A stretch of 22,786 bases of DNA, from positions 1 through 22,786 of IMG/VR virus record IMGVR_UViG_3300029914_001569, one strand, 5' to 3'. Positions 237 to 22,786 of this stretch are shown here, piece after piece. How positions within the stretch are numbered: the first letter of the stretch is position 1; every line of letters starts with the position of its first letter. A program made the position numbers and the translations under genes. This stretch comes from a virus. Below the pieces are notes generated by a model. It had not been told where the DNA came from. It made no database searches and saw nothing but the letters and a program-made list of their open reading frames with translations.

Positions 237-3200
237 CTAAAAATCTTCTTCTGCCCATTGAACTAAGGCGCATGCCCCTCCTCCATCCTTACCAGCGACA
301 TAACCCACCCCTGGGAAATATTCACCTGTAACTACGCGGTAGTACCAATTGGGCGGGATAATCGCCGACAGCGTGGTGGTTGCGTTGTAGCCTCCACCGC
401 TAACGATGGACGCGGATGGGCCTATCATCCATGGACCTGAGGAAGTCGTGCTGATAAGTTCTAGGTGAATCGTGCATGCAGCTTGATCGGTCGCAGTGAC
501 GTAAATAGCGCGATGGAATGGGTACTGGCTTAAATAGTTAGTGTTGTAGATCTTTGACGTTGGCGAAAAGTTGGCAATGACAGCAGCGATACCGCTCTCA
601 GTGATATTCCCGTTTGCATCAAAGGCAGCATAGTCGCCAGGAGTGCCTGAACCGTCGCTCATTTGGACTGCGGAGCCATTACCATGAGCGTTGATGACCC
701 CGGTACCACCCTCTGCCACTGGCAATGCTAGCTGTAATCCCGTTATCGCAGTGATCGTTGAATTGGGGCCACTCACCACCGAGCATCCGGTGGCGGCTGT
801 GCAGGCACTACTACCGCCAACCGTGAGCGCGGGGACAGCTACGACAGCCGCGCCTGTAGAGCCGGTGTGGGTGAAGGTCAAAGTGCTTGTAGGGTTGGCT
901 CCAGAGCTGAGTACGCTTTGTGCGCTCCACGTATCAAGAGCATCTTGCGTCCCATTGAAGTAGCTTCCAAGAAAGCCATACGCGAAGGAGCCGTAATTAG
1001 TATAATTGTTAGCCAGACCCAGAGAATACTCAGTGAAACCAACAGAATTTAATATGTAGGTAGTCCCATCTTGTAGATGAGAGCACCCAGTCAGTTTTTG
1101 GGCTGATCCCGCCAGCGGAATGCAACCGGCCCCTAGGCCAGATATACCGCTCGAATGATTATTTAATTGCTCTACAGTGACAGGGTCGGTGGGGGCTACG
1201 CCATCCGGTAGATTATGGATCGGGCCTCCGCCCATATCCACAGAGCCACCACCAAAAGAAATATCTCCGCCATTCAGAAACATCTGAGTTCCGCCAGTTA
1301 GGTTAAACGTGATGCCGTCCCCGGATGTTACATTCCCCAGACCATCAATCTGAAAGTAGCCAGAGGCAAATACTGCAGCCCCAGTTCTAGGGTCAAACTG
1401 AACGTACGCATTTGAATCTATGCCATCAAAACCAAGCAACATGCCATTTGTAGGGTTGATGCCCCAGTAGCCCGCAAGATTGCTATTATTGCAAAAGACG
1501 GCTGCTCCCTGAACGTAGACACTGATGTTGGTCCCGTATACATCCTGTTCCATGCATCGGGTGCCAGAAAACACGGGGTATACGCCGGGATTACCGGAAG
1601 CTGTCTCGGATAGGGGTTGGCCATCTGTGGCATCTATCAGCCAGATGTTCTGATGAGAGTCCACACCCCAGTAATTCAGATCAACCCCTCCTACACCTGA
1701 GGTTCCAGTGGTGACACAGGGCTGACCATACAGCACAGTCAGCGTCAAGGGAGCCCCCGCCCAATCTACCGTGGTGCAGGATTGGCTACTGCTAGTATGG
1801 GCATCCACGTATTGCTTAGTGGCAGCCTGCAACGCAACAGTTGGGTCTGCTGGCAGGGTGATCGGGCCTGTCACTGCGCCGCCTGTATTCGGCAGTGCCC
1901 ACGTACTGTAATTCCCCGAATTCAGCAGGGTGTACCAAGAATTCCATGTAGAATCGATTCCAGACCGTAGGTTGATAAATGGGATTCCCCCGGCGTTGTG
2001 CGATTGACTATTGAAGGACATCTGGTAAGAAGCATCTCCAGTACTGGCGGTAGTGCCGAACCAAGGAGTAACTGTCATCAGGCCGGAATAGTTTCCCCCG
2101 CCCCCAGCTGCACCTGCTTCCACAAATTCAAAATCAATAGACTGCTGGTGGCTTGTAGGTAGGTTAGTGTTGGGATTTCGATCCGTATCTGGCAGAGTGG
2201 ATAAAAACCTAGAACTTCCCGTTGTACTCTGATTGAGCTGCGGAATCAGAGAGGCCGCAACCATTCCACTGCTCAGGTTATTGGCGTTGGCTGAGAATGT
2301 CTCGGCCATGTTTAGTGCGTTCTGGGCCGTGTTTGCAGCATCGAAGGCCGAAGTATTTTGATATGCCGCTGAACCAAGAGTCGGAGTCCCGCTCACCTGA
2401 GAGTAGGCCACCTGAGCGCAGGTGAGCCCGCTGGCTGTCGTCGCCGTTCCGTATTGGCCAGAGGTGCAGGTTCCCGGAGCGGCTTTTGCCGCCGCCGCGC
2501 CAGATACATCGAAGGCTGAGGTGCTTTGCTGTGCCGCCGAGCCAAGGCCTAGATTTGTGCGCGCTGTACTCGCACTGGACACATCGCTCAGATTGTTGGC
2601 TGGGTTGAGCGGCGCAAAGCCGAGCGATGCTTGCTTGCTATTTAGCTGATTCTGGATTGAGCTTGTCGCATCTTCGTAGCTCATCGTCGCGGGGCTTACA
2701 CCATCCACCGTTTTATTGGTGAGGGTCTGAGTGTCAGATAAGTTAACAATTGCTGATGAATTGACTGTACTGCCTGTCGCTGCTGAGAGGGACCCACTGA
2801 ATATGCCATGGGTAGCCTGCAACGTGCCACTAGCGTCTCCATTGACTCCGACGTTTACTACACCGGCTGAGGGACTGGCTAGAGTGGTGTTGTTTGGTAA
2901 AACGAAATACTCTCCGGTCTGGATGTTGGCACTTGTGGTATATATCAAACCCCAAGATCTAAGCCCGTTTGATAGCAATAGTTGATCTTGCAGCATAAGT
3001 CCTGCACTCCACGAAGAGTTCGGAGGGCCTTCATACATACCACCGTAGTTGGCGATATGTAGACTCATGTTGCACATAGCACAAGCCGAAAAGGAAGTCA
3101 CCACGCCGTAGATGCCAGACCCAGCACTTAGATACGATAAGCCCCCCACGGAGTGAACACCTCTGACGATAGTTCCGCCGAATGTGTCGTTGGCCACATT

Positions 3201-5438
3201 TGTCGTGGTTATAGCGGTGTAGCAGATCTCCTCATTTCGGACAGCAATGCAGCCGGGTACAGGGTATCCAGTGATAGTCGCAGTCGTCACTACCGGGACT
3301 GCCGCAGAGGGATAGGCGTTTATCGCCGTCAGCAAGGTCAGCCACGCGGTTGACGTGAAGGGCGCATGGTACTGATCGTGATTGGGGCAAGCATAGCCAG
3401 AACAGGATGCCGCCTGCACGAATGCGTCGGTGGCTATAGCTGCGCTGCTATCCCCAGCGGCCTGTGTAGCACCGGTGCTGCCCGTGAGGAGGGCTACTGG
3501 CTCACTCGGGGTAATAATCCCGTTCGCATCACTCAGATGGGCGCAGCCGGGTATGGTCCCAGATGATCCGGCCAGCGGGATGCAGTTGGCGGCCAAACCG
3601 GAGATCAGGCCGGGGGCCGAGGTGATCGCAGCGGGAAGTGCGGTTCCGGTCAGTGTGGCGGCGGGAGCGACCACCGGACTGGTCGTGATGCTCGTCACCC
3701 GCCCCTTGCCATCTGCGGTAACGGTTGGGATCGCCGTGGACGAGCCATACGCTCCGACCGTGGTGTTTACTGTCGCCAACGCGATCCCGCAGCCTGAATT
3801 GGCCACATCCCCGAGGAATGCGGGGAGCTGGTTACAGGCCAACGTATTAGTCAGATCGGAGAATCCCAAATTGACCACGCCGATATGGCCATTGACGCTC
3901 TGCACGGGCGCGGCAGGCGTGAGAATCATCTGCCAGTTTGTCAAGGTTATTGCTGGCTCATGCTGTAGGATGAAGCTCTCATTGGTGTCGGAGCGGATGG
4001 CCACATCGCCAATGTCCGCTGGAAGGGCGAGTTGCGAGGCCTGCGACGTGACCACGTAGGTTGTGTCGATGGCTACGGGAGGTAACTCCCCCGTCGGAAG
4101 CAGGCCATTTGCGTCCAACGAGGCCACGCCATTCGGAGCACCCTTTTGCGCCATAGGAATTGCTGCATTGGCAGTGGTCTGCGCTGCCGCCGCGTTGCTC
4201 AGCGCGGAGCTCGCCGTACTCTGTGCCGAGGCTGCATTAGCAACCCCGAGATTAGCTTGTGTCTGCGCGGTCACGGCGTTGGCCAGAGCAGCGTTGGCAG
4301 CAGCCTGCGCGGCAGCAGCGTTGGTAACGCCAAGGTTGGCTGTAGTCTGTGCCGTAGCGGCAGCGGTGTTGGCGGTTTCCGCCGATGTGCTGGCGGAGTC
4401 AGCCGTGCTCTGTGCCGTCGCAGCCGCAGTCGCCGCAGCCGTCGCTGTGCCTTGCGCGCCATTCGCAGTGGCCTGCGCTGTAGCGGCGGATGCGCTGGCA
4501 GTGGCAGCGTTGGCGATCCCCGTCTGTGCATCGGACTCAGCGGCGTTGGAAGCGGCCTGCGCGGCAGCGGCATTGGTAACGCCAAGGTTGGCGGTTGTCT
4601 GTGCGGTGGTGGCAGCGGCGTTGGCGGTTGCTGCCGATGTTCCAGTGGAGTCAGCTGTACTTTGTGCCGTAGCAGCCGCACCCGCAGCCGCCGTCGCTGT
4701 CCCTTGCGCGGCAACCGCAGCGGCCTGCGCTATTGCAGCGGATGCGCTAGCGGCAGCCGCGTTGGCGATCCCCGTCTGCGCGTCGGCCTCAGCGGCGTTG
4801 GCAGCGGCCTGCGCCGCAGCCATGGCTGCGCCCTGACCAATAGGGATAAATACCCCGGAGAAACAGACGCTCTCGGCTGCAATTCCGGCGTTGACGCGGA
4901 TGTCGATGGCGGGTGCGATGCAGCTCGTCGGCGCGCTGCCCGTTCCTGTGGTGAAAGTGAAGGCGTCCGACGTGGGTGCGATGCTGGGCGGAACGTAGCT
5001 ACCCAGTGACCAGCTCGTGCCACCAATGCCGTAGATTAGCCCCAGGTCGGCGCCAACCTCCGAGGTGCTGGTTCCCGATGCGGCGGTCACGCCGACGCCG
5101 TACGGGCCGGGCGTGGCCGCTCCGGGATAGATTGTGATGTCGTAGGCGTGTCCCGGAGCGGAGTCGGTCAGCGCGTTGGGTACGCTCAGCGCGCCGGTCA
5201 GTGAGCCGTTGACCAGCGTCTGGCAGAAGGGCCATCCGGCGAGATACATCGTCCCAGCCGAAGACGTGACAGAGATGGAATTGTTGTACTTGTCGACGGC
5301 GGACAGGCAGATCGTTCCGTTTACGGATACAGAGGCCACGTTGACGCTTGTCGCCGTAATGGTGGTCATCGCCTGGGGGAAGGCGGGAAGCGCGGCGAGG
5401 GTGAGCAGAACGAGCAGCGGCAAACGGCAGAATCGCAT
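237..5438 (-). CDS. Giant secreted tail-fibre-like protein with alanine-rich repeats
   Basis: Protein of about 1733 residues. It begins with a typical Sec signal peptide (MRFCRLPLLVLLTLAALPAF, predicted cut near residue 23). A beta-rich head of about 190 residues follows, then an Ala/Thr/Gln/Asn-rich stretch at roughly residues 210-440 built on 84-residue repeats, which is probably coiled coil. The rest is a long shaft with phage-fibre signatures: a 'LTNKTVDGV' motif, 'ATKQYVDAH', and several 'GLAANCIPLAGS'-type repeats. The C-terminus is compact and beta-rich. I prefer the ATG at 5438, which starts the signal peptide; a TTG at 5465 would add nine residues and neither start has a strong ribosome site. 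A signal peptide is unusual for a virion fibre, so this may be a surface adhesin or receptor-masking protein expressed from the prophage. It lies just downstream of the early operon; no separate promoter was identified. Confidence 0.85.
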   Translation of the reverse strand: MRFCRLPLLVLLTLAALPAFPQAMTTITATSVNVASVSVNGTICLSAVDKYNNSISVTSSAGTMYLAGWPFCQTLVNGSLTGALSVPNALTDSAPGHAYDITIYPGAATPGPYGVGVTAASGTSTSEVGADLGLIYGIGGTSWSLGSYVPPSIAPTSDAFTFTTGTGSAPTSCIAPAIDIRVNAGIAAESVCFSGVFIPIGQGAAMAAAQAAANAAEADAQTGIANAAAASASAAIAQAAAVAAQGTATAAAGAAATAQSTADSTGTSAATANAAATTAQTTANLGVTNAAAAQAASNAAESDAQTGIANAATASASAATAQATANGAQGTATAAATAAATAQSTADSASTSAETANTAAATAQTTANLGVTNAAAAQAAANAALANAVTAQTQANLGVANAASAQSTASSALSNAAAAQTTANAAIPMAQKGAPNGVASLDANGLLPTGELPPVAIDTTYVVTSQASQLALPADIGDVAIRSDTNESFILQHEPAITLTNWQMILTPAAPVQSVNGHIGVVNLGFSDLTNTLACNQLPAFLGDVANSGCGIALATVNTTVGAYGSSTAIPTVTADGKGRVTSITTSPVVAPAATLTGTALPAAITSAPGLISGLAANCIPLAGSSGTIPGCAHLSDANGIITPSEPVALLTGSTGATQAAGDSSAAIATDAFVQAASCSGYACPNHDQYHAPFTSTAWLTLLTAINAYPSAAVPVVTTATITGYPVPGCIAVRNEEICYTAITTTNVANDTFGGTIVRGVHSVGGLSYLSAGSGIYGVVTSFSACAMCNMSLHIANYGGMYEGPPNSSWSAGLMLQDQLLLSNGLRSWGLIYTTSANIQTGEYFVLPNNTTLASPSAGVVNVGVNGDASGTLQATHGIFSGSLSAATGSTVNSSAIVNLSDTQTLTNKTVDGVSPATMSYEDATSSIQNQLNSKQASLGFAPLNPANNLSDVSSASTARTNLGLGSAAQQSTSAFDVSGAAAAKAAPGTCTSGQYGTATTASGLTCAQVAYSQVSGTPTLGSAAYQNTSAFDAANTAQNALNMAETFSANANNLSSGMVAASLIPQLNQSTTGSSRFLSTLPDTDRNPNTNLPTSHQQSIDFEFVEAGAAGGGGNYSGLMTVTPWFGTTASTGDASYQMSFNSQSHNAGGIPFINLRSGIDSTWNSWYTLLNSGNYSTWALPNTGGAVTGPITLPADPTVALQAATKQYVDAHTSSSQSCTTVDWAGAPLTLTVLYGQPCVTTGTSGVGGVDLNYWGVDSHQNIWLIDATDGQPLSETASGNPGVYPVFSGTRCMEQDVYGTNISVYVQGAAVFCNNSNLAGYWGINPTNGMLLGFDGIDSNAYVQFDPRTGAAVFASGYFQIDGLGNVTSGDGITFNLTGGTQMFLNGGDISFGGGSVDMGGGPIHNLPDGVAPTDPVTVEQLNNHSSGISGLGAGCIPLAGSAQKLTGCSHLQDGTTYILNSVGFTEYSLGLANNYTNYGSFAYGFLGSYFNGTQDALDTWSAQSVLSSGANPTSTLTFTHTGSTGAAVVAVPALTVGGSSACTAATGCSVVSGPNSTITAITGLQLALPVAEGGTGVINAHGNGSAVQMSDGSGTPGDYAAFDANGNITESGIAAVIANFSPTSKIYNTNYLSQYPFHRAIYVTATDQAACTIHLELISTTSSGPWMIGPSASIVSGGGYNATTTLSAIIPPNWYYRVVTGEYFPGVGYVAGKDGGGACALVQWAEEDF
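4296..4799 (-). repeat. Two tandem 252-bp repeats inside the fibre gene
   Basis: Two successive imperfect copies (4548-4799 and 4296-4547), each encoding 84 residues. Both start NAAE(A/S)DAQTG and share blocks such as AQGTATAAA and TTANLGVTNAAAAQ. 84 is exactly 12 heptads, which fits a coiled-coil shaft that grows in whole turns. A degenerate partial copy continues downstream to about 4150. The repeat also produces long antisense ORFs with no coding meaning. Confidence 0.85.
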
Positions 5439-5468
5439 GCTTGCAGTGTGCCGCGAGCGAGGCAAAAA

Positions 5469-10017: not shown

Positions 10018-10025
10018 AGTGCTCC

Positions 10026-10450: not shown

Positions 10451-10737
10451 TAGCGCACCGCCTGGTCGATTGCGCCGGTGGCCCATGCCTCGACCAGGAC
10501 GCCGATCAGATAGAGCACCACCAGAACCAGCAGGTAGCCAAATATCGTTCCCACGCGCATCTCGAAGCGACGCCAGTCACAGCGGTCCATCCAGCGCTCA
10601 ATGCGGTCGTTGAGCCGTCCGCACCAGCCATAGGGCTGCGGCGCGGAGATGGGGAGGATCTGAGCGGATTTGCTCGGAGCGGCCTCGACGTGCTCATCGA
10701 GGTAACGGTCTATATTGGACCAGCGGTTGGCATTCAT
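10450..10737 (-). CDS. Small membrane protein after MuB
   Basis: 95 residues from the ATG at 10737, which overlaps the TGA of the MuB gene. A polar, basic N-terminal half (IERWMDRCDWRRFEMR) precedes one strong transmembrane helix at about residues 65-85 (TIFGYLLVLVVLYLIGVLVE). The basic half should stay in the cytoplasm. In Mu the gene after B is kil, whose product blocks cell division. There is no visible similarity to Kil, so the resemblance is only of position. Confidence 0.65.
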   Translation of the reverse strand: MNANRWSNIDRYLDEHVEAAPSKSAQILPISAPQPYGWCGRLNDRIERWMDRCDWRRFEMRVGTIFGYLLVLVVLYLIGVLVEAWATGAIDQAVR

Positions 10738-11726
10738 TCGGCGTCCTCTTTCTGTGCGGCATCGTATTGCTGTTTGAGGTTGGCGAGCGCGTTGCAAAGG
10801 GTTCGTATGTTGATATACGTCGCTGGAGCGTGGCCTTTGGAGACCGAGGTGTAGGCGTCGGGCACGGTGGCTAGCTCGACCAGCTTGGCGGCGACCTCTT
10901 TCCCGTTGGCCTTGCGCGCTAGAATCGGGCCAATCTCGCGCTGGATGATGGCCAGCGCCTCAACCTGCGTGCATCCTGGCAGACGCACCTTCTGGGCGAT
11001 GCGCGAGTTCCACTGCTCCAGCGTGGCCGAGCAACGTTCGAACTTGAGGTGCAGATCGTGCGATCCGGCGAAGAGCAGGCTGAAAAACGGCTCCCGATCC
11101 ATCAGCTCGCGCACCGTCTCGAAGCATTCGATGCTGAGGTGCTGTGCCTCGTCGAAGATCAGCAGACAGCGGCGACGACGATGCTCCTCGCGCAGGCGTC
11201 CGATGATCTGGTCGCGTGATCCGTACGGACTAAGACCGCAGGCCTCGGCGATGCGTCCCAACAGCGCGTAGGGACGGATGTCCTGCGAGCAGTAGCAGTA
11301 GTAGGCGCGCGCCCCGTCGGCATTTTTAGCCATCTCTGCGCGGTTCAACTTGAAGACCTCGTGCTCCAGCACGAAACTCTTCTGGCTGCCCGGAGGCGCG
11401 TAGATCAGGAAGGCCAGCGGCTGGCGCAGCAGCTTGGCGAATGTTTCGCGGATCAGGCGCACATTGGCTGTTTCGAACAGCTCGCCGTGCAGAGGCCGCG
11501 ACGGAGCCACCGGATGCGCCGACATGTATCGCTGCGCCGCCGCGACGACCTTACCGTCGTTGCCCCCCATGCTGGCGTAGCGTCCGGAGAGGAACAACGC
11601 GACGGTCGATTTGGCATAGCCGATGCGCCGGGCGAAGTCAGCCGGATGGATTCCGGTAGCATCGAGGTAGGTGCGGGTCTCCGCGATAAAGGGGCTGCTT
11701 TCGTGCGTGGCCAGGGCGAGTTTCAT
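10734..11726 (-). CDS. MuB-type AAA transposition ATPase
   Basis: 330 residues. An N-terminal helix-turn-helix (about residues 20-48, FARRIGYAKSTVALFLSGRY) is followed by an AAA ATPase domain. The Walker A region is APPGSQKS (about 110-117), with Ala and Gln where the classical GxxGxGK(S/T) loop has Gly; Walker B is LLIFDE (about 188-193). A sensor-type AGSHD follows. In Mu, MuB binds target DNA as an ATP-dependent filament, delivers it to MuA and stimulates strand transfer. The ATGA overlap with the transposase gene gives tight coupling. The N-terminal HTH plus AAA arrangement matches MuB/IstB-like proteins. Confidence 0.88.
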   Translation of the reverse strand: MKLALATHESSPFIAETRTYLDATGIHPADFARRIGYAKSTVALFLSGRYASMGGNDGKVVAAAQRYMSAHPVAPSRPLHGELFETANVRLIRETFAKLLRQPLAFLIYAPPGSQKSFVLEHEVFKLNRAEMAKNADGARAYYCYCSQDIRPYALLGRIAEACGLSPYGSRDQIIGRLREEHRRRRCLLIFDEAQHLSIECFETVRELMDREPFFSLLFAGSHDLHLKFERCSATLEQWNSRIAQKVRLPGCTQVEALAIIQREIGPILARKANGKEVAAKLVELATVPDAYTSVSKGHAPATYINIRTLCNALANLKQQYDAAQKEDAE

Positions 11727-13903
11727 GCGAGGAGATCTCCTAGAATGTCTGCTGCAATGTCGAAGCTGGATGCGGGTGCGGTTGCCGTGTCGCTGGGCTT
11801 GGTGGCCTCGCGCACGGCGCGTTGGGAGAGTAGCGGAGCGACGTCGGGAGTCAACACAGCCAGCTCCGCGAGGTGTTGCAGATCGGATTTGTAGCCAGCC
11901 AAGGCAACGGCGCGGTGCCGCTGCTTGACCGTGCCCGCCGATGCGCTGAGCAGCTTGGCGCGAATGCGCATCATGTCGCGGATCTGCGCATCGTTGGCGG
12001 TGTGAGCTTCGATCCCTGTGGGATGTTCGGTCAGCCGCTCAACCACCAGATCGGCCATGCGACGGCCCTGCGCGTCGAGCGCGATGATGCGGTCGGGGTC
12101 CAGCGGGTCATAGACGACGACGATGTTCGTCTCGTTGGCGTTATGGATCGCCATCCAGGAGGATGTGGAGGATTGCTCCGGCATGTAGCGGCGACCATCA
12201 ATGGTAACTGCGGTACGCCGAACCAGAGCGGTGCGTCGCTCGTGCAGCAGCAGAGCAAGCACATCGGGATCGGCGGTACGCCGCTGAGCGAGTGGGTAGC
12301 CCTCGTCGAATACCTCGTTCGGGGTGCGCCCGTTCATGCCGCGACCGCCGTGACGATGAGTCGCGTTGTAAATCTGCTCGATCCAGGTCTCGGCCAGCCT
12401 GACGAAGATGCTGGCGGGCATCAGACTGGATACGCTTCCCAGACCGCGTTTCATCAGCTTGCGGTGCTCCGCTCCGGCGATGACCGTTTGGTCGGGCCGC
12501 AGATAGGCGTTGCCCGTGGTGTAGTGGGGCATGATAGCGTCCAGTCCGCCGTGAACGATGCCAAAGAGGCGCTCTACCGGTTTGCTCTGCGGCGAGTAGG
12601 GGATGCAAAACTGCACCTCGATGCCAAGCTGCGCCAGCGATCCGGTACGCAGCAGCTCATTGGTCGCCGTCTCAACCGACTCCTTTGAGGGCCGGGTCTG
12701 CTTCGCTCCCTTGGCGGCCTTCTTCATATCGCGCCCGTTGTCGGTGTATACGACGTCGCAGGGGCCATAGAGCGAGGCCGCTTTGCGGATCGCCGTGGCG
12801 ATGGAGCGCGAGTCGCCGTTGACGCACCAGCAGTAGCCGACGATCTTGCGCGAGCGCAGATCCATCAGGCAGGTCAACTGGGGGCGGATCGGCGCATCCA
12901 TCGGAGCTCCGGAGAAACAGTCGTTGCGCACTTCTACGTCGTGGATCTGGTGGTCGAGCACCCAGATGCTATTGCAGGGGATGTCGGTGAAGCGGCGGTT
13001 GACGTGCGGAGCGCAGCGCGTGGAGTAAGCTGCCAGGCCCTCGCGAGCGAGAATACGCATCGCGGCGGGCAGCGAGTCCAGATAATTGCGCACGGTCGAG
13101 TACGACGGCATATCCGCAGTGGGGATCTGGAGCAGCTCACGGTTGCGCACCAGAGCCTCGAAGGCGCGGGCAACCGTGGCATACGGCTTGTGGTACTCCG
13201 CCGCCACCAGCAAGGCGGCGTTGGGATAGCGCGTGAAGAAGTGGCAGATGCCCTTGTCCTCGCGCGTCTTGCAACCCAGACCGTTCAACCCCTCGGCGCG
13301 ATACCGCGCCAGCCAGCGCCTCAACGTGCGCGAGCTGGGATGCTTGCCCTGCACCTTGATCGTCTGCGATATATAGATAGCTAGATCCTCTGCCCGCTTG
13401 ACCGCGCGGCCATCGCTCAGCCGCAACCCGGTGTACTTCGCGCAATTCTCCGCTTCGGCATATTCCACCAAAGGCCGGATTGCCTCGTAGCGGAGCAGCG
13501 CGAGCGTCTCCTGCTCCGGCGACATACTGAGCACGCGCCCGGCATTCTCCGCAGGACGAGCCGCCGCAAACAGCGGCATCAATTCCTCCTGCTGCGGCGC
13601 AGCTGGGGCAGGCAGTTGGAGGATTGGTCGCGGGCTTCCGCTGCCCAGCGCCTTGCGCTGCGCCTCAATCGGCAACGAGGCCACCGAATAGCTCTTTGCC
13701 ACACGTCCATTGCGCAGGCGCGTCTCTCCGTCGCGAGCTTCGAGATTGCCTACGGCAACCTGCATCTCGACATAGCGAGCCGACCAACCTGTTAGCTCGC
13801 ATACCTGCTCCTTGGTGATCCACTGCGCTCCACGTCTGGCTGGAAGCATGGACGGCGCAAACGGCACGATGTTCATTGGAAGAGCCAAGGCGGATGCGCT
13901 CAT
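11723..13903 (-). CDS. MuA-type DDE transposase
   Basis: 726 residues. Residues about 25-85 form a winged-helix end-binding domain (ITKEQVCELTGWSARYVEMQ), and residues about 140-300 contain helical DNA-binding domains (SSRTLRRWLARYRAEGLNGL). The RNase H-like catalytic core has the triad Asp317 (WVLDH), Asp388 (YTDNGRD) and Glu444 (SKPVERLFG). The 56-residue spacing of the second Asp and the Glu is the same as in Mu A (D336/E392). A beta-barrel and a C-terminal MuB/ClpX-interacting tail would follow. The enzyme cuts and joins phage ends during integration and replicative transposition. It is coupled to the CII-like gene upstream and MuB downstream. All catalytic residues are present. Confidence 0.92.
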   Translation of the reverse strand: MSASALALPMNIVPFAPSMLPARRGAQWITKEQVCELTGWSARYVEMQVAVGNLEARDGETRLRNGRVAKSYSVASLPIEAQRKALGSGSPRPILQLPAPAAPQQEELMPLFAAARPAENAGRVLSMSPEQETLALLRYEAIRPLVEYAEAENCAKYTGLRLSDGRAVKRAEDLAIYISQTIKVQGKHPSSRTLRRWLARYRAEGLNGLGCKTREDKGICHFFTRYPNAALLVAAEYHKPYATVARAFEALVRNRELLQIPTADMPSYSTVRNYLDSLPAAMRILAREGLAAYSTRCAPHVNRRFTDIPCNSIWVLDHQIHDVEVRNDCFSGAPMDAPIRPQLTCLMDLRSRKIVGYCWCVNGDSRSIATAIRKAASLYGPCDVVYTDNGRDMKKAAKGAKQTRPSKESVETATNELLRTGSLAQLGIEVQFCIPYSPQSKPVERLFGIVHGGLDAIMPHYTTGNAYLRPDQTVIAGAEHRKLMKRGLGSVSSLMPASIFVRLAETWIEQIYNATHRHGGRGMNGRTPNEVFDEGYPLAQRRTADPDVLALLLHERRTALVRRTAVTIDGRRYMPEQSSTSSWMAIHNANETNIVVVYDPLDPDRIIALDAQGRRMADLVVERLTEHPTGIEAHTANDAQIRDMMRIRAKLLSASAGTVKQRHRAVALAGYKSDLQHLAELAVLTPDVAPLLSQRAVREATKPSDTATAPASSFDIAADILGDLLA

Positions 13904-14678: not shown

Positions 14679-14700
14679 ATAGTGAACCATACAGTCATAA

Positions 14701-14723: not shown

Positions 14724-14729
14724 TGTCAA
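14701..14729 (-). promoter_or_regulatory. Early leftward promoter (consensus -35, 17-bp spacer)
   Basis: Read on the minus strand: TTGACA at 14729-14724, a 17-base spacer, then TATACC at 14706-14701. The -35 is a perfect sigma70-type match and the -10 matches four of six. Transcription should start near 14694, giving a leader of about 15 bases before the Ner-like ATG at 14678. The whole spacer and the -10 are covered by the operator palindrome. Confidence 0.75.
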
Positions 14730-14739
14730 GGGCTATTTT

Positions 14740-15459
14740 GTGCCGAGCGTAAAAAGTGTAAAAACCGATCTGTCGAAGATGATCCTTGCATGGCGCGAGG
14801 CGACGGGGCGCACTCGCTTGAGCCTATCGAGAGAGCTGGAAGTATCTAAAACTTCCGTCTCAAACTGGGAGCTTGGATGTAACGATCCAGGCGTAGACGT
14901 GTTGATCGCGCTTGCCAGGATAGCCGAGGGAAATTTCAGGGATTACTTCCTTGTCCGGGCAAAAGCTAAATCGGGTCTGACGAGCGATGCAATTCAGTCC
15001 ATCGCTGAGATGTCTTCTATTTCTTCTGCCGAGGCTGGGGTCAAGAAGCAACCAAAGAGAAATCTATTCGCCGAGATCCCGCTTGTAGAGGGATGCGCCG
15101 GGGCAGGGCCTGGATACCTCCATGAATGCGACAAGCGAGAAGGAAATATTTCGGTTCCAAGGGGAATCGTCCCAAATCCATCAGAAACAGCTTGTATTCG
15201 GATTGACGGCAATAGTATGGAGCCGACAATCCAGCGCGGGACTATCGTTGCCGTGGATAGCACACAGAGACGCATTGAGAAACTGGATGGAAAGATCGTG
15301 GCGGCGCGGCATAACGTCGAAGATGTCATTATCAAACGGCTGCGTCACCATGAAGGAAAAACCTTACTCATCTCGGACAATCCGATCTATGCTCCGATCG
15401 ATATTGAATCAGGCTGGGAGGTTATAGGTAGGGTCGTGTGGTGGATACAAACAGCCTAA
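14740..15459 (+). CDS. LexA/CI-type phage repressor with S24 peptidase domain
   Basis: 239 residues from a GTG with AAGGG seven bases upstream. Residues about 8-66 are a Cro/CI-type helix-turn-helix (LSRELEVSKTSVSNWELGCN). Residues about 110-235 form the S24/LexA peptidase: Ser159 in GNSMEP and Lys199 in VIIKRL are the catalytic dyad, and Ala-Gly pairs at 120-123 (GCAGAG) are candidate self-cleavage sites. It should hold the lysogenic state by binding the adjacent operator and be inactivated by RecA-stimulated self-cleavage on DNA damage. This differs from the Mu c repressor, which lacks such a domain. It diverges from the early operon. Confidence 0.9.
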   Translation: MPSVKSVKTDLSKMILAWREATGRTRLSLSRELEVSKTSVSNWELGCNDPGVDVLIALARIAEGNFRDYFLVRAKAKSGLTSDAIQSIAEMSSISSAEAGVKKQPKRNLFAEIPLVEGCAGAGPGYLHECDKREGNISVPRGIVPNPSETACIRIDGNSMEPTIQRGTIVAVDSTQRRIEKLDGKIVAARHNVEDVIIKRLRHHEGKTLLISDNPIYAPIDIESGWEVIGRVVWWIQTA

Positions 15460-15478
15460 GGGATAAAGGGAGCTACGA

Positions 15479-15979
15479 ATGAATAGGTGGGCTATATTTC
15501 TTGCAGCATTATTGCTGGCTGGTTTCGCGATCTTAGCTGTGCGCTCGCATCGATCTGTGTGGGTGCATGAACCGGAGACTATTCTCGGCATCAAATTCGG
15601 CGTTCCTTTGAGCCAATCTGTTCCTAAATGTACATCTGTCATACTGAAGGAATGTTATGAAAATACCCTATCTGGCCCGATTCTTCGCAACACCCCCGAT
15701 GAGTTTGGTGTGGTTGGGGTTGTCCTTTCGGGTGAAGATGTAACCAATTTGTTTATTAGCTACCCCAGTTTTGAGTCAGATATAGTAAAGCGTCAGATGA
15801 TTGAAGAATATGGCGAACCTCAAGATGGGGATGAGCGATCAAAAAGCATGACATGGTATGGCAAGCGGATCAATCTCTACATCAATACCCCTGCTTCTGA
15901 AGACGACGGTTATATCGACGCTTCGTTGCGAGAGGAAAATAAGACAAAAGTTCCTATTGAAAACCCATTTAAGAAATAA
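15479..15979 (+). CDS. Membrane-anchored hypothetical protein
   Basis: 166 residues, ATG preceded by AAAGGGAG, 19 bases after the repressor stop and probably in its transcript. One N-terminal hydrophobic helix (residues about 5-21, AIFLAALLLAGFAILAV) followed by a soluble mixed alpha/beta domain points to an anchored extracytoplasmic protein. The domain has a small conserved-looking core (ILGIKFGVPLSQSVPKC, then MIEEYGEPQ and TWYGKRINLYI) typical of small periplasmic proteins of unknown function. Expression with the repressor marks it as a candidate lysogeny-expressed gene, for example superinfection exclusion; the sequence does not prove this. Confidence 0.7.
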   Translation: MNRWAIFLAALLLAGFAILAVRSHRSVWVHEPETILGIKFGVPLSQSVPKCTSVILKECYENTLSGPILRNTPDEFGVVGVVLSGEDVTNLFISYPSFESDIVKRQMIEEYGEPQDGDERSKSMTWYGKRINLYINTPASEDDGYIDASLREENKTKVPIENPFKK

Positions 15980-16013
15980 CTGTTTTTCTGTTTGGGCTTC
16001 GGCAATCAGTGGA

Positions 16014-16235
16014 CTAAATATCCGCCTGGGGCTTGATCCACTGAGCGACGCCTCCGTGGTGGGAGCAGGCCCCTGTGGGGTGCTTGGCGAAGGTATGCAG
16101 CCCGTCTTTGTACTGAGCTGTCCAGAGGTAGCTCTCACGGTTGCTGCGACGCGGATGCCGCGTTCGCTCTCTCTTCTGGCCCAGGGCTGGCAGGCTGGCC
16201 GCCAATATCAACAGAACTGCAATCCGCTTTGTCAT
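16014..16235 (-). CDS. Small secreted DUF3761-like protein
   Basis: 73 residues with an N-terminal signal peptide (MTKRIAVLLILAASLPALGQ, cut near residue 19). The mature part has the motif YKDGLHTFAKHPTGACSHHG followed by GVAQW, which resembles the short DUF3761 domain ('C.DGtyS.s.hr.GaCSHHGGVa.W') found in secreted bacterial proteins. It runs opposite to the surrounding right-arm genes and converges with the membrane-anchored gene at 15979. An AAGGA directly abuts the ATG, which is an unusually short spacing. Likely bacterial cargo rather than a core phage gene. Confidence 0.65.
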   Translation of the reverse strand: MTKRIAVLLILAASLPALGQKRERTRHPRRSNRESYLWTAQYKDGLHTFAKHPTGACSHHGGVAQWIKPQADI

Positions 16236-16245
16236 TCCTTGAAGG

Positions 16246-16555
16246 CTACGCGACTTCTTCTTTACTGTCTACTCCTTCGCCTTGCATTCGCCTTACGTCC
16301 GAGCTATTCTGCTGGGTCTTTATTCCATCACGGAGCCAAATCCGTTTGTGTTCTTCACTAAGTGGGGCATCGTGCTTCCCTTGCTCTTGCACCTCCTGTC
16401 GTCTTGTTTGAATTGCGAAGTAGGTTTGAGCAAATGCCATCGACTTTTTTGGGGAATCCCCGTTTTGAGCAATTCAGATAACTTGTCTCCGATCTGTATC
16501 TCTGCATTCGACCCAATCTCGACCATTTCGTGCACATGCACAAAATGGTCTTCCA
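16246..16555 (-). pseudogene. Decayed DinD/BRO-family remnant
   Basis: Three reading frames in succession give pieces of one protein family. From 16555: DHFVHVHEMVEIGSNAEIQI; then at about 16480-16440 in another frame: SYLNCSKRGFPKKVDG; then from 16440 in a third frame: AFAQTYFAIQTRRQEV and LSEEHKRIWLRDGIKTQ. Together they follow the DinD (DNA-damage-inducible protein D) order 'HF.DV.kMVeiGSgA.R.i.D...YL.aqNGdp+K..iAfAQTYFA.QTRrqE...Lse.qkR.wLRd..K.hN'. At least two frameshifts are present, and the first ~60 residues and the C-terminal half are missing. The 5' piece keeps a GGAGAG ribosome site. Confidence 0.7.
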
Positions 16556-16574
16556 TCGTGAACTCTCCTTTCGC

Positions 16575-17039
16575 ATGGCCAAGGGCGAGCACTTCGCCAG
16601 CGCAAACGCGAAGCTCTTCGAGGGTGGCAAGGTGAAGCGGTCACTTGATCGCGTCCGAGTACTGCTCGACGAGACCTCGGCGCGGCTGCGCCATGTGCTG
16701 ATCGAGCAGCGCAGCTTCGAGCAGATCCTGACGCGGTACGATTCGCCCGCGACGTGGTTCTATCTCGATCCTCCGTACGTCCACTATCAGGCCAACGGTC
16801 GCTATGCGGCGCTCAGCGAGGAGCAGCGAGTGGCGCTCTTCGCGCAGCTCGCCTCGCTTCAGGGTAGTTTCCTGCTCAGCTTCGACGACTGCGTGGAGGT
16901 GCGCGCCCTGGCGCGGCAGCACGGCTTCCATGTGCGGCGAGTTGAGGTCGGCTACACCCTCGGCTGCACAGCCGCCTCGCGCTCACAGAAGGCAGGCGAG
17001 CTGCTGATCTCAAAGTCGCCCCTCCAGCTAGCTGCATAG
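16575..17039 (+). pseudogene. C-terminal part of a Dam-type DNA adenine methylase
   Basis: 154 residues from the ATG at 16575. It keeps the DPPY catalytic motif (WFYLDPPYVHY, about residues 61-71), the preceding SLDRVRVLLDETSARLRHVL and SFEQILTRYD region, and the C-terminal strand and loop (FLLSFDDCVEVRALA). The N-terminal ~100 residues of D12-class methylases, with the FxGxG S-adenosylmethionine loop, are missing, and the upstream DNA is the DinD remnant. The protein should be inactive unless its partner half is supplied elsewhere. Such methylases normally protect phage DNA from host restriction. Confidence 0.78.
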
Positions 17040-17180
17040 TCCCTTCCTACGGCCAACCTTGCACGACGGCGCATGTGTCGCTCGGTTTTCTGCGTCTGCG
17101 CCTTAGTCTCTGGTCATGCCTGAACGGCATGGAACTCACATCCCTGCGAAGGAGACTGTGGGCAGACCCAGAGCGGCAAG

Positions 17181-17207
17181 CGGAGTGGGACTCGAAACCC
17201 CACTCCG
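17181..17207 (+). other. Nine-bp hairpin upstream of the endolysin gene
   Basis: CGGAGTGGG (17181-17189) pairs perfectly with CCCACTCCG (17199-17207) around a nine-base loop. No T-run follows on either side, so it is not a standard terminator. It ends nine bases before the AAGGAG ribosome site of the glucosaminidase. The stretch 17040-17228 otherwise shows no convincing gene; it could hold the late promoter or mRNA leader of the lysis operon. Confidence 0.5.
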
Positions 17208-17228
17208 TACGCCATAAGGAGCAGGGCA

Positions 17229-17735
17229 ATGGCGACACCGGAACAACTCGAAATTTTGCGCTCGGCTGCACCGGCGGCGCAGGCGGCGGAGCGTAAGTGG
17301 GGCGTCCCCGCGTCGGTGACCCTGGCGCAGTGGATCTTTGAATCGACCTGGGGAACCAGCAAGCTGGCGCTTCAGGCAAACAATTATTTCGGGATCAAGT
17401 ACAGCCACCAGCAGTCCCCCTGCATGTATGTCGAGTTTCCAAGCCCCGAGTACGTTGACGGCAAGCGCGAGGTTTTAATGTCGCTCTTCGCCAAGTACCC
17501 CAGCGAGGAGGCCAGCTTCGAGGACCATGCGCGGCTGCTTGCGATCTCTCCGCGCTACCGCCTCGCGATGCGGCAAGCTGGGCATCCCGACGCCTTCGCT
17601 GAGCGGCTAGCGCATTCGGGCTACTCGACCAACCCGGCCTATGCGGAGATGCTGACCGGAGCGATGCGCGAGTACGACCTCTATCAGTACGACGTGCCTA
17701 CGCCGCCCGCTGCGGCCAAGGAGGTGGCCGCTTGA
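17229..17735 (+). CDS. GH73-type glucosaminidase endolysin
   Basis: 168 residues, AAGGAG ribosome site. The catalytic Glu is probably Glu38 in TLAQWIFESTWGTSKLA. The family motifs NNYFGIK (about 51-57) and FAKYPSEEASFEDHARLL (about 87-104) follow, and 'GYSTNPAYAEML' ends the domain. This is the flagellar-FlgJ-like, mannosyl-glycoprotein endo-beta-N-acetylglucosaminidase fold used by phages to cut peptidoglycan for lysis. There is no signal peptide, so it needs a holin for release. It is the first gene of the lysis set and overlaps the next start by four bases. Confidence 0.88.
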   Translation: MATPEQLEILRSAAPAAQAAERKWGVPASVTLAQWIFESTWGTSKLALQANNYFGIKYSHQQSPCMYVEFPSPEYVDGKREVLMSLFAKYPSEEASFEDHARLLAISPRYRLAMRQAGHPDAFAERLAHSGYSTNPAYAEMLTGAMREYDLYQYDVPTPPAAAKEVAA

Positions 17736-17992
17736 TCCAAATCCCCATGACGGCAGACCAGTATGCCAAGGCTCGCGCCGCGCTGACCACTAGCGCGCAG
17801 GTGCTCAGCCACACCGAGCAGGGTGCGCTGAATGGCAGCTTCAGTACGGCGCAGATCGAGATGACCTATTACTACGCGCAACCCTTGGGTCAATTGCAGC
17901 TCGCCGTAAAGGCGCGCCATGGGCTGGAGGCGCGGGTCGCCAGTGAGGGGCAGATTCAAGCCAAGCTGGAGACGTTGCTGGCACAGGTTTAG
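17732..17992 (+). CDS. Hypothetical lysis-region protein (86 residues)
   Basis: Starts at a TTG overlapping the endolysin stop (TTGA), with AAGGAGG about seven bases before; an ATG five codons in is the alternative. The product (MIQIPMTADQYAKARAALTT, ending AKLETLLAQV) is soluble and helical with a YYYAQPLG turn in the middle. No membrane segment or known motif. It sits between the endolysin and the holin-like gene and is probably cotranscribed with them. Confidence 0.6.
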   Translation: MIQIPMTADQYAKARAALTTSAQVLSHTEQGALNGSFSTAQIEMTYYYAQPLGQLQLAVKARHGLEARVASEGQIQAKLETLLAQV

Positions 17993-18040
17993 AAGCACCC
18001 CGCCCTCGGCTCAACCGGAGGCGGCGATGGGAGGAAGAAA

Positions 18041-18457
18041 ATGACGTTTATTAAGCTGTTGACGGAGATCGGCAAGGGATTCGAGCGGGGCCTTGCCTGG
18101 GCTGTGACGTATGCGGTGCCAGTAGAGAAGCTGGTCGCCATGATCTTTCCCGCCGCCGCGCCCGAGGTAACCGAGCTGGCCGACGCCACTGGGCTGATCC
18201 AGACGGCGGTGCTTGAAGTCGAGCAGAAGTATGCCGCCGCCAAGATTCAGGACGGCACGGGAGCGCAGAAGCTGGCTGACGTGATGACGCTGGTCGGGCC
18301 GGTGGTCACCAACCTACTGACCAAGGCTGGCGTGAGCAACGCCAACAGCAGCTACGTAGAGAGCCTCATCTCCGCCGTGGTCGCGATCCTCAACGTGCAA
18401 GTGCTGACCGAGAGTGCAACCACGACCGCCGCGACGACCGAAGCCGCTGCGGCCTAA
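18041..18457 (+). CDS. Small helical protein, possible holin-like
   Basis: 138 residues with GGAGGAAGAAA before the ATG. The first part has a moderately hydrophobic helix (GLAWAVTYAVPVEKLVAMIF). Residues about 50-118 (TAVLEVEQKYAAAKIQDGTG, then LTKAGVSNANSSYVESLISA) follow the plan of LLH-type phage holins, in which a 'E.....g..K...v.......gi......ie.lIe.aV..lN' segment closes the protein. The membrane segment is weak, so the call is tentative. The tail is Ala/Thr-rich. Confidence 0.55.
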   Translation: MTFIKLLTEIGKGFERGLAWAVTYAVPVEKLVAMIFPAAAPEVTELADATGLIQTAVLEVEQKYAAAKIQDGTGAQKLADVMTLVGPVVTNLLTKAGVSNANSSYVESLISAVVAILNVQVLTESATTTAATTEAAAA

Positions 18458-18478
18458 ACACAACCCCAAACGGCACGG

Positions 18479-18528
18479 CTGCGGGTAGCGCACGGAACGG
18501 CTGGGGGATGTCCCCTGCCTCCCCGCAG
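18479..18528 (+). other. Structured leader before the Acb2-like gene
   Basis: An outer stem CTGCGGG (18479-18485) with CCCGCAG (18522-18528) encloses an inner GGGG/CCCC hairpin (18504-18515). It ends about six bases before the GAGGAGGG ribosome site of the next gene. No T-run follows. It may be a translation-control or RNA-processing element, or just GC-rich sequence. Confidence 0.35.
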
Positions 18529-18546
18529 AGATAGAGGAGGGCTTCG

Positions 18547-18777
18547 ATGGCAGAGCTGACGGAAGAGCAAATTTGTGATCTAGATCACGCGTATGGCTAC
18601 CATGCGCCGAACGCCGAGCAGATCGAAAAGTACGCAGCTATTAATGCGGCAGCTAAGCAGTTCGAGCGGACGGTGCTGGAATCTTGCCCGCCGAGTGCTG
18701 ACCGGACGTTTGCTACGCGCCAGATCCGCGATGCGCGGATGACGGCCAACCGCTCCATCGCTCTCTACAAGGAGTAA
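18547..18777 (+). CDS. Acb2/Tad1-hairpin-domain protein (likely anti-CBASS/anti-Thoeris sponge)
   Basis: 76 residues, strong GAGGAGGG ribosome site. Residues about 18-74 form two long helices with a short turn: YHAPNAEQIEKYAAINAAAK, FERTVLESCPPSADRTFATR, then QIRDARMTANRSIALYKE. This follows the Acb2/Tad1 hairpin pattern (helix, 'C/tPPsadr..A...i..A.M.AN.aIA' second helix). Family members, such as phage Acb2, assemble into small oligomers that bind and hide cyclic oligonucleotides made by host CBASS, and Tad1 members hide the Thoeris signal. Here it is predicted to protect the phage from a nucleotide-signalled abortive defence. Placement in the lysis-gene transcript fits a cheap accessory gene. 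Ligand cannot be told from the sequence. Confidence 0.75.
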   Translation: MAELTEEQICDLDHAYGYHAPNAEQIEKYAAINAAAKQFERTVLESCPPSADRTFATRQIRDARMTANRSIALYKE

Positions 18778-18782
18778 CCCAG

Positions 18783-18983
18783 ATGGCACACAGCTACGGG
18801 CCGGGCGGCAAGGTAGAGGGCAACGCGTTCGATCGGGCGTGAGCGGGCAAGGTGCCCTACCCGACCGAGGCTGGAGCGCTGGCTGGGCTGAAGTTTTTGC
18901 AGCAGGAGAGGGCTCTGCGGACGGGCGACGGAATGGTCGTCTACGAATGCAAATTTTGTTCGAAATGGCACTTCGGTCATTAG
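18783..18983 (+). pseudogene. Zinc-finger ORF interrupted by an in-frame TGA
   Basis: Starts MAHSYGPGGKVEGNAFDRA, five bases after the Acb2-like stop, and meets a TGA at 18840-18842. The same frame then continues sensibly for 46 codons: AGKVPYPTEAGALAGLKFLQ and GDGMVVYECKFCSKWHFGH, ending at a TAG (18981-18983). The CKFC...WHFGH end is the hallmark of small phage/plasmid zinc-finger proteins of this size. One CGA-to-TGA change (Arg) would explain the break. Re-initiation at GTG 18852 or ATG 18933 could yield a shorter product. Confidence 0.6.
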
Positions 18984-19143
18984 CGGCACTAGGACGCGCC
19001 GGAGGAGTTTGCGGGTAGGGTTGGACGTTCGGAATTAGCGCCACGCGTGGCAGCTATTGTTTTGAGCGATTACGGGGCAGTACAGGGAGCGGTCGGAGGC
19101 GGGATTGATGGTCAGGACGACGATAGCGGTTTTGGAGGTAGGG

Positions 19144-19548
19144 ATGCAGGTTTGGGCTGGGAAGGTTCGGGAGTGGTTCGTCGGCAAGAAAACGACGCTG
19201 GGCGGATGCCTGATAATCGCTGCCACAGTCGGCGGGGTAGCGACAGGATCGTTATCTATAGTAGATGGCATCACTGTGGTCGGGTTCGGCTTCTCGATCT
19301 GTGGTTGGTCGGCCAAAGCCAACCGGCATCAGTCGGAACTGCTGTCGGCTCTGGAATCGGTCGCCGCCGCCGGGGTCGATCTGCGGACTGACAATAAGGC
19401 TGCTGCGATTGCGGAGATTGACTCGCAGATCAGTCAGGCCATCGCCCTAGTCGCCCCGACGGTGATCTCCGCAGAGCCAGCAGCCACTCCAGTCGCAGCA
19501 CCGGCACCGGTTACAGCGGCGCAGCCGCAGGGGACGATCCTGCGATGA
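19144..19548 (+). CDS. Two-span membrane protein, holin candidate
   Basis: 134 residues from the ATG at 19144 (GGAGGTAGGG directly before it); an ATG at 19108 with GGAGGCGGG upstream would add 12 residues. Two hydrophobic helices are predicted at about residues 18-36 (TLGGCLIIAATVGGVATG) and 40-56 (VDGITVVGFGFSICGW), after a basic stretch (FVGKKT). The rest is a soluble tail ending in Ala/Pro repeats. Size, two close spans and place beside the endolysin suggest a holin. Its stop overlaps the next start (ATGA). The 160 bases before it hold no convincing gene. Confidence 0.6.
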   Translation: MQVWAGKVREWFVGKKTTLGGCLIIAATVGGVATGSLSIVDGITVVGFGFSICGWSAKANRHQSELLSALESVAAAGVDLRTDNKAAAIAEIDSQISQAIALVAPTVISAEPAATPVAAPAPVTAAQPQGTILR

Positions 19549-20045
19549 CAGAGCATGTTCAATTTCTCCGCGCGAGTAAGTCGGACGGATTCTCGACCGT
19601 GCTGATGGTCGGCGTGACCGTCTTCGGCGGTGGGTCGTTCGCATACGGGATCTTCCAGATCATCCGGTCGGAGCCGGATAAGGCCTTTGATCTGTTGAAG
19701 TCGTGGGGGCCGGGGTTCCTGCTGGCTATCTTCATCGCCTGGTGCGTGAGCAACCTATTCAATCGCGGTCTGGACGTCACGGTACGCACCGGGGAACGCA
19801 GTGCGGCTGCTATGGAGGGCGCCACGATCCAGATGCAGTCCATCGCCGAGGCGATGCACGCGCAGGCTCTGGCGCTGCAATCCACCGCAGATAGAGATGA
19901 CCGAGACAAACAGGAGATGCAGATTCTAGTCGGCGTCGTGAACTCCAAGGTCGAGCAGGCCCTGGAGGAGTTGAAGTTCCAACGTAGGACGTTCGAGCGG
20001 ATCGAGGAAGCGCTGAATATCCGCAGGCCCCAGGAAAGCGAGTAG
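19545..20045 (+). CDS. Membrane protein with C-terminal coiled coil (holin/spanin-region)
   Basis: 166 residues with two predicted transmembrane helices (about 17-40, TVLMVGVTVFGGGSFAYGIF, and 55-72, GPGFLLAIFIAWCVSNLF) and a long helical tail (residues about 85-155) rich in Gln, Met and Glu that is probably a coiled coil. It is translationally coupled to the two-span protein before it (ATGA). Together they look like a holin/antiholin or holin/spanin pair. No lipobox or spanin signature is visible. Confidence 0.6.
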   Translation: MTEHVQFLRASKSDGFSTVLMVGVTVFGGGSFAYGIFQIIRSEPDKAFDLLKSWGPGFLLAIFIAWCVSNLFNRGLDVTVRTGERSAAAMEGATIQMQSIAEAMHAQALALQSTADRDDRDKQEMQILVGVVNSKVEQALEELKFQRRTFERIEEALNIRRPQESE

Positions 20046-20047
20046 CT

Positions 20048-20371
20048 ATGGCGATGATTGAATGGCACCCCGATAAGAAGCGGCATCTACGTATGGAGAT
20101 CCTGCGCATCCTGAGTGTGCGTCATGGGCAACAGCGGTCGCGCATGGATGACACCATGCTCTGCATCTCGCTGCGCGATCTGGGCTGGTTTGATCTCGAC
20201 ATGAACGACACGGTGACCATTCTGCAAGATATGAGCGGTCGCGGTTGGATCAAGTTCCGCACCCTGAAGAACATCTACGCGCGCCGGGTGCAGCTCTCCC
20301 AGATTGAGATTCTGCCGGAAGGTCAAGATATTTTTGACCAGGTGAAAACCGATCCCGCCGTGGAGATCTAG
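20048..20371 (+). CDS. Mu gp25-like / VpaChn25_0724-family phage protein
   Basis: 107 residues. Winged-helix-like arrangement: ILRILSVRHGQQRSRMDDTM, then ISLRDLGWFDLDMNDTVTIL and DMSGRGWIKF, ending RVQLSQIEILPEGQDIFDQV ('.l..I.lTerGldva.G' in the family). In Mu-like phages this protein sits between the lysis genes and the gp27/gp28 terminase genes, as here. It has a role in late development that is not well defined. It starts two bases after the coiled-coil membrane gene ends. Confidence 0.7.
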   Translation: MAMIEWHPDKKRHLRMEILRILSVRHGQQRSRMDDTMLCISLRDLGWFDLDMNDTVTILQDMSGRGWIKFRTLKNIYARRVQLSQIEILPEGQDIFDQVKTDPAVEI

Positions 20372-20373
20372 CT

Positions 20374-21054
20374 ATGGCGATCCGAAAAGCAAGACCAAAG
20401 ACCGGCGAGAAGCGCAAGACGCGTCAGCCGCTCAAGATCGACCAATTGCCCGAGACGGTGCGCGAGGCTATCGTTAGCCTGCGCAACGACCGCTTCAAGA
20501 CGTGGGAACAGATTGAAGAGCTGAGCGCAAAGTCCTACAGCCACGAATGGAATAAGGACGGCGGCGGATTCATCGACTGGCCATCCATTGACCCAGAGCT
20601 ATTGGATGACTTCCCTGGCCTGAAGTTGCCTCACTCCAGTCTGCAACGTTGGTACGATCTGCGCGTCAGCCAGGTGCAGACGCAGGTAATCGAAGAGTCA
20701 AAGACAGCGCGCGCCTTCGCTGCAAAATTTAGCGGCGCGAACATCGACGACCCGAATGGCGCGGTGATCAACGCCATGCGCGATGAGGTCTTCGCCCTGG
20801 CTTCAAAGATGGACTCAGGGAGTCGTGGACAGTATATGAAGGCGCTCAACGCGCTAACGCTGGCCATGACCCGCATTCAGCGGGTGCAGATGCAGGCGCT
20901 GAAGGTGAAGGCGGAGATCGCTAAGAGCGAGACAGAGCGGGCACGCATTGCCGCGACCTCTGGGGATCCGCGCGAGGTATATCTTCGCCGAGGAGCAACA
21001 GCAGACTGCGAAGATCGACGCCGAGTACTCCAAGCGCGTGCGCGAGGCGAATGA
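20374..21054 (+). CDS. Mu gp27-like small terminase (DUF3486) with aberrant C-terminus
   Basis: 226 residues. The first ~190 fit the Mu gp27/DUF3486 small-terminase plan: a basic N-terminus, IDQLPETVREAIVSLRNDRF, a helix-turn region with LKLPHSSLQRWYDLRVSQVQ, and long helices (AEIAKSETERARIAAT) towards the end. After about residue 195 the sequence turns Arg-rich (REVYLRRGATADCEDRRRVL). This last part is translated out of frame from DNA that encodes the tape-measure protein in another frame. The normal C-terminus is lost at the junction near 20960-20985. Whether the truncated protein still functions is unknown. Confidence 0.72.
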   Translation: MAIRKARPKTGEKRKTRQPLKIDQLPETVREAIVSLRNDRFKTWEQIEELSAKSYSHEWNKDGGGFIDWPSIDPELLDDFPGLKLPHSSLQRWYDLRVSQVQTQVIEESKTARAFAAKFSGANIDDPNGAVINAMRDEVFALASKMDSGSRGQYMKALNALTLAMTRIQRVQMQALKVKAEIAKSETERARIAATSGDPREVYLRRGATADCEDRRRVLQARARGE

Positions 21055-22786
21055 AGCCGACGACCACACCGTCGAGGGCCATCAGGAGACGCTGGCCAAG
21101 ATCGCCGCGCTTGATGACCTGCGCAACGCGCAGATGGGTGAGCAGGCAAACGCGATGCGTGACAAGCTGGCTGGCACGCTAGAGTCCGCATGGAAGGATC
21201 CAATGGGATCGATCAAGGACGCCATGCAGCACGAGATGGCCGAGATCGTCGCCAACTGGATAATGCAACTGACTCTCTTCAAGCATGTCCAGAGTTCCAT
21301 CTTGGGCGGACAGAGCGCGCCGGTGACTGCTGGTGTGGCTGGTGGTATCGGAGCAGCTACTACGGGCACTGGCGGCATTCTGGGCAGCCTGCTGCATGGA
21401 TCATCTGCGCGTTCGAGTGCGGGGCCGCACTCTTCTGGCAGCGGGGGCAGCAGCAATAGTGGCACATTCAATGGCGGCAGCTATGCGGGGACTTCGGGCG
21501 GGAGCTATGGAGGATCTTCGAGTGTGGGTAGCTACGGAGGAACTTCTGGCGGTAGCTACGGCGGCTCTTCGAGCGTAGGCCCCAGCTATAGTCCGGCGAG
21601 CGGTTCAAACATCGGACCGACCGTAAGTATGGCTGCTTCCGACATTCCTGCGATCAGCCATGATGTCAAAGCGGCTCGCGCTCAGGCTTCGGGCCATTCG
21701 CCCATCGGCGCAAAGGTCCCTCCCAGCGCCAGCGGCAGCGTTGATGATTCCGCCGCGCAGGGCGATGGCGGTCTGGGCGCAGGAGATGATTGGAAAAACG
21801 CCGACTCAAAGACTGCGGGAAGCTCCGGTGTGGATCTCTCCGACAGCGATCCGCATGGCGATGGATCCGGCACGGCGAACTACTCGTCTTCCTCTGTGCC
21901 GAAGGGCAACACAGCTGCGACTGCCGTAGGCGATGCGGCGACTGTTGGCATAGCGGGCTACGAGGGCTACACCTCAACCAAGGCCGATTTTATGTCTGAC
22001 TCGGTTGGTGGCATGATGAAGGGTACTCTGGGCGATGCAATGTCGGGGATGGCCATCGGCGGCATGTTTGGGCCGGAGGGCGCGCTGATTGGCGCAGGTG
22101 TCGGCGCGGCAGTCGGGCTGTTCACTGGCGCAGTCAGTATGCTAACCGGCGAGGGTGGACGACTGGCCGCGCGCGATTACTACAAGAAATCGATCTCGCC
22201 TGAGATCGAAAAGGATCGCAACGGATACGAGGGCGGAGACTTTCAATCAGCAATCTCCGAGATCAACAAAACAGCCTCTGATGGCCTGACCTACATGGGC
22301 GCGCACTGGGGCGGAAGCGCTGCGGAGTGGGTCGATCAGAACTACCTGCGCAAGGAGCAACTGGCCGCCGTCGGAGAAATATCTTCGCGCGCTAAGGGCG
22401 GCGCTGGTTATGTAAGCATGTCGGCCAAACAATTTCACACCGGAACGAGCGCAATTACCGATTTCGGCGACCTGGCGACGAGTCCGAACGAGGGGTTTAT
22501 TCATGCACTGCTTGGCGAAGCCATCGTGAACCCAGTGGCTGCTTCGACTCACGGACCAGCTATTCAGGCTATGAACTCTGGCGCTTCTCCGGCGGATATG
22601 GCCTCGATGTATCAGGGCTCGTCGAACAGCAACTCCGGTGGCGGCGACACGCACCACCACTACAACATCAGCGCGATCGACGCCAAGGGGTTCGATACAT
22701 TCCTGCGCAACGGCGGAGCGCGCCAAATCATAAAGCACACCAACAACTATGCATCGCAGTATGCGGGAGACGGCATCAGTGGCTGA
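20948..22786 (+). pseudogene. C-terminal part of a tail tape-measure protein
   Basis: 612 codons, open from a TTG at 20948 inside the gp27-like gene to a TGA at the window end. The recognisable part starts near 20985 (FAEEQQQTAKIDAEYSKRVR) with an N-terminal coiled-coil-like stretch, continues as helices (LAGTLESAWKDPMGSIKDAM), a Gly/Ser-rich region with 17-residue repeats, then Gly/Ala-rich hydrophobic helices (MAIGGMFGPEGALIGAGVGA), and finishes with HHHYNISAIDAKGFDTFLRN, a typical end of tape-measure proteins. The normal N-terminal hundreds of residues are absent, and there is no proper start or ribosome site. It is the 3' remnant of a gene that should lie many genes after gp27. Confidence 0.75.
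21476..21580 (+). repeat. Gly/Ser repeat in the tape-measure remnant
   Basis: Two imperfect copies of a 17-residue unit of the type SYGGTSGGSYGGSSSVG, encoded by about 51 bases each. This gives a flexible linker between the helical N-terminal part and the hydrophobic segment. Codon choices differ between copies, so the repeat is old or selected at protein level. Confidence 0.7.

Follow-up and report, generated by a model that had tools for sequence, protein, structure and literature searches.

A Mu-like element in a metagenomic virus record that has probably lost about 14 kb of morphogenesis genes in one recent deletion

Here we argue that the DNA analysed, which is the whole IMG/VR virus record IMGVR_UViG_3300029914_001569 (22,786 bases; hereafter, the window), is probably a Mu-like element that became defective in nature, in all likelihood as an integrated prophage, when about 14 kb was recently lost in one deletion. 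The lost segment would have begun within the gene for a gp27-like small terminase and ended about halfway through the tape-measure gene. The element looks like a representative of an already known kind, namely, a commonplace defective version of a phage that is found with its gene order unbroken in related records.

The window contains no Ns, and its first three bases (TTA) and last three bases (TGA) are the stop codons of the terminal open reading frames, at the start on the minus strand and at the end on the plus strand, respectively. Since such a coincidence with gene ends on both sides is very unlikely to be accidental, the record appears to be a provirus that was excised from a longer contig at gene boundaries, and the phage termini with their transposase sites are probably outside it. 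As expected of a Mu-like element, a MuA-type DDE transposase adjoins a MuB-type ATPase (phrog_310 and phrog_296; 10734-13903), and the gp27-like gene typical of the Mu late region is recognized by PF11985 and phrog_426, being truncated at residue 203. The genes for the transposase, the MuB-like ATPase, the repressor and the endolysin are open and of full length (Table 1), so that the gene set of a mini-Mu (full-length A, B and repressor) is present in the window. A reading made earlier from the sequence only had credited the element with genes for transposition, immunity, anti-defence and lysis; the first two (the latter in the form of the repressor) and the last (the endolysin) are borne out, whereas family searches named no anti-defence gene.

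The early operon lies on one strand and the genes from the repressor to the tape measure on the other, a layout that the window has in common with four longer relatives of 35-44 kb used for comparison: G003 (IMGVR_UViG_3300044470_000215), G004 (3300010396_000062), G007 (3300047495_000038) and G009 (3300047642_000013). The remainder of the window is largely explained by genes that are ordered as in the relatives. The fibre-like protein at the distal end of the early operon, which is remote from the other tail genes, contains Ala-rich repeats; it has relatives at the equivalent position in G003, G004 and G007, and its N-terminal part is 59% identical to the gene in the equivalent place of G004 and 50% identical to that of G003.

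Table 1. Features of the window that bear on the proposed deletion
Feature	Position	Strand	Evidence or remark
Tail-fibre-like protein, 1742 aa, distal end of early operon	237..5465	-	weak tail-protein PHROG matches
MuB-like AAA ATPase	10734..11726	-	phrog_296 DNA transposition protein, PF13401
MuA-like transposase, full length	11723..13903	-	phrog_310 3e-77; 62% full-length to G003
CI/S24-type repressor	14740..15459	+	PF00717, phrog_4
D12-type adenine methylase remnant	16530..17039	+	residues ~17-120 lost, frame changed at join ~16575
Endolysin (glucosaminidase)	17229..17735	+	PF01832 2e-30, phrog_3513
Mu gp27-like small terminase gene, 5' part	20374..20984	+	PF11985, phrog_426; 100% to L002
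Putative deletion join	20981..20985	+	ATCT common to both sides
Tape-measure gene, 3' part, ~last 600 codons, no start	20985..22786	+	other frame than gp27

The four longer relatives, whose gp27 and tape-measure proteins are, respectively, 51-77% and 40-67% identical to those of the window, possess the 14 kb that the window lacks: the distance between the two points is 14.4 kb in G003, 14.2 kb in G007 and 13.9 kb in G009, in line with the single deletion of many kilobases that had been proposed from the sequence. In G003, this interval encodes the large terminase (phrog_38), the portal protein (phrog_10963), a head morphogenesis protein (phrog_2468) and a protease/major head protein (phrog_4523, phrog_133), along with several genes that belong to no named family and the initial ~567 codons of the tape-measure gene. 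No gene could be assigned to the sheath or the tube, not even among the undeleted relatives. When the open reading frames of the four relatives were used as queries (E<=1e-4), genes for the large terminase, the portal, the head and the tail had no match in the window apart from the tape-measure fragment and the fibre-like gene. The absence of the morphogenesis genes, noted previously, is thus upheld, and no terminase-to-tail set lies elsewhere within the record; further phage genes may exist beyond its ends. Because these virion genes are missing here and present in the relatives, the record represents a defective derivative rather than a complete phage.

The position of the join can be narrowed to a few bases. 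The gp27-like open frame (20374-21054; PF11985, 3e-11; phrog_426, terminase small subunit, 2e-10) and the tape-measure frame differ in phase (20374 mod 3 = 1, 20948 mod 3 = 2) and overlap at 20948-21054, within which the two genes had been supposed to be fused out of frame; the join proper is at 20981-20985, inside this zone. On the gp27 side, the evidence comes from L002, a record from another metagenome, which is identical to the window over 3,650 bases (17335-20984, zero differences) and first differs at 20985. Beyond this point, L002 runs into the remainder of gp27 (251 residues in the undeleted gene, 203 of whose codons are retained in the window), a 551-residue large terminase that is 79% identical to that of G003, and the start of the portal gene; hence, the intact order sought in related genomes is found as gp27 followed by the large terminase in L002, and as the ~14 kb block in the longer relatives. 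Ten loci from other viral records align with the gp27 frame over residues 1-205, although in L007 the match stops at residue 181; no close relative matches the final 21 residues of the frame.

On the other side, the tape-measure relatives L012-L014 align to the window only from 20981. Matches to the downstream frame are confined to the C-terminal half of relatives 1124-1185 residues long (the open frames of the tape-measure relatives comprise 1096-1208 codons), with 66-67% identity to G002, G003 and G011 and 40-44% to G004, G007 and G009, and the first codon of this frame, TTG at 20948, is an upstream extension of the open frame and not a gene start. The third-position GC content is similar on the two sides of the join (0.73 and 0.67), and G003 and G002 are among the closest relatives of each side. 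Judged from the sequence, the two sides probably, though not certainly, come from one phage, the join being present in a single record.

It is this last circumstance that keeps open an artefactual origin of the join, whereby pieces of one or two related phages would have been connected by a chimeric read in the library or in the assembly, the true genome being undeleted. We regard such an origin as unlikely, though conceivable. The join is absent from all other records searched, and the near-identical L002 lacks it; exact DNA patterns taken from the window (at its left end and on the tape-measure side) and from the right end of L002 retrieved no further near-identical viral record, and the tape-measure sequence of the window was absent from every other viral contig in such a pattern search. 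No near-identical prophage was seen among the genome contigs searched, and a large-terminase scan of genome contigs, made with poor patterns, yielded nothing. Chimeras that arise upon amplification typically join at few common bases, and just four bases are common to both sides here. Random joins would reach four or more in 1.6% of cases, so that an overlap of this size suits a short-homology deletion as well as such a chimera. However, the longest repeat near the two sites does not exceed 10 bases, which is below the usual word lengths of assembly programs, and the window is free of Ns; moreover, an abundant undeleted form should have made the assembler follow, or stop at, the better covered path.

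Further lesions at short repeats have a bearing on the same question. The methylase gene of the window has lost ~104 internal codons, and the identical join occurs in a third record, L015, which differs from the window by one base in 13,173 (6159-19331) and so supports the middle of the window. In L002, the portal gene (5400-5600) lacks a segment of ~57-60 bases that is conserved in five relatives, with the frame changing upstream of the segment; CGCTG is found at both edges of this segment in G004. Because of this lesion, L002 can be taken to show the ancestral gene order, and not to be a certainly functional phage. Either this lineage loses DNA by short-repeat deletion or libraries of this type create such joins, a common artefact that the portal lesion could reflect. 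We favour the former, because the methylase lesion is present in two separate records, which argues against the chimeric origin of the main join as well.

Another way to account for the join is an exchange of modules, in which recombination at gp27 would have swapped the morphogenesis module, the rest of it lying beyond the end of the record. There is a precedent: in L007 (3047-6617), a related N-terminal part of gp27 leads into an unrelated large terminase and portal of Mu type; to judge by its sequence, this locus has exchanged its morphogenesis module at a boundary within gp27. L007 was also considered as a second case of deletion, since no matching large terminase is found behind its gp27, and was rejected because a different terminase and portal follow directly. 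For the window, we find an exchange hardly credible, because the join leads, out of frame, into the interior of a tape-measure gene from the same phage group, and not to the start of a new module.

Turning back to the deletion, its age can be gauged from the same comparisons. Since the window has not diverged at all from the undeleted L002 up to the join, the deletion would be very recent, unless the join is an artefact. The near-identity to L002 and L015 therefore leaves no time for domestication, and neither the domesticated element suggested earlier nor a parasite lineage of long standing is supported. A satellite that had long been without virion genes and had been selected for parasitism or for a benefit to the host is, accordingly, very improbable. 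The intact genes for transposase, MuB-like ATPase, repressor and endolysin would befit such an element, and a mini-Mu that retains both ends, the repressor, A and B does replicate upon induction (PMC10052514), but the out-of-frame remnants of the truncated genes are still in place, no second record has the join, and nine of the ten other gp27 loci have, immediately after gp27, a large terminase belonging to one and the same family (in L007, it is a different one).

The scenario that we prefer, a recent loss in a prophage, can be envisaged as follows. A single deletion that began within gp27 and ended about halfway through the tape-measure gene would have removed ~14 kb, the cut possibly being made by short-homology recombination, via slippage or end-joining, between two ATCT sites; no repeat longer than 10 bases was found near both sites. 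Neither of the truncated genes would yield a working product and, in the absence of large terminase, portal and head genes, the element probably cannot build particles of its own. Upon induction, derepression, transposition and lysis of the cell could still take place, and the element may transpose in the manner of a mini-Mu. Its DNA would then be packaged only with the head, tail and large terminase of a helper, which would make it a natural counterpart of the laboratory mini-Mu. Dependence on a helper phage, which had also been put forward, is thus possible in principle; that the element is a transmissible parasite, which spreads by replicative transposition and relies for its packaging on undeleted copies of this phage in its community, appears to us improbable. 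A limited literature search found no direct precedent for a natural helper-dependent mini-Mu.

The case provides a natural deletion defined to the base among Mu-like phages of an uncultivated group, and a near-identical record gives the ancestral order. If the deletion is real, such phages naturally give rise to deletion derivatives of the mini-Mu type, as would be predicted from work in the laboratory; otherwise, we deal with an ordinary defective prophage or with a reason for caution over joins that are present in a single record. Among known systems, the pool of defective prophages of O157 Sakai (PMC2669165) offers a likeness in that temperate elements there lack a block of virion genes, whereas the window holds a transposable phage, comes from a metagenome and would have been deleted very recently. 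Closer still in gene content are the laboratory mini-Mu and mini-D3112, in which the repressor along with A and B are kept and most of the morphogenesis region is gone (PMC10052514, PMC8705779); unlike these constructs, the element described here is natural and belongs to a distant phage group, its transposase being, among the matches listed, at best ~27% identical to those of known phages.
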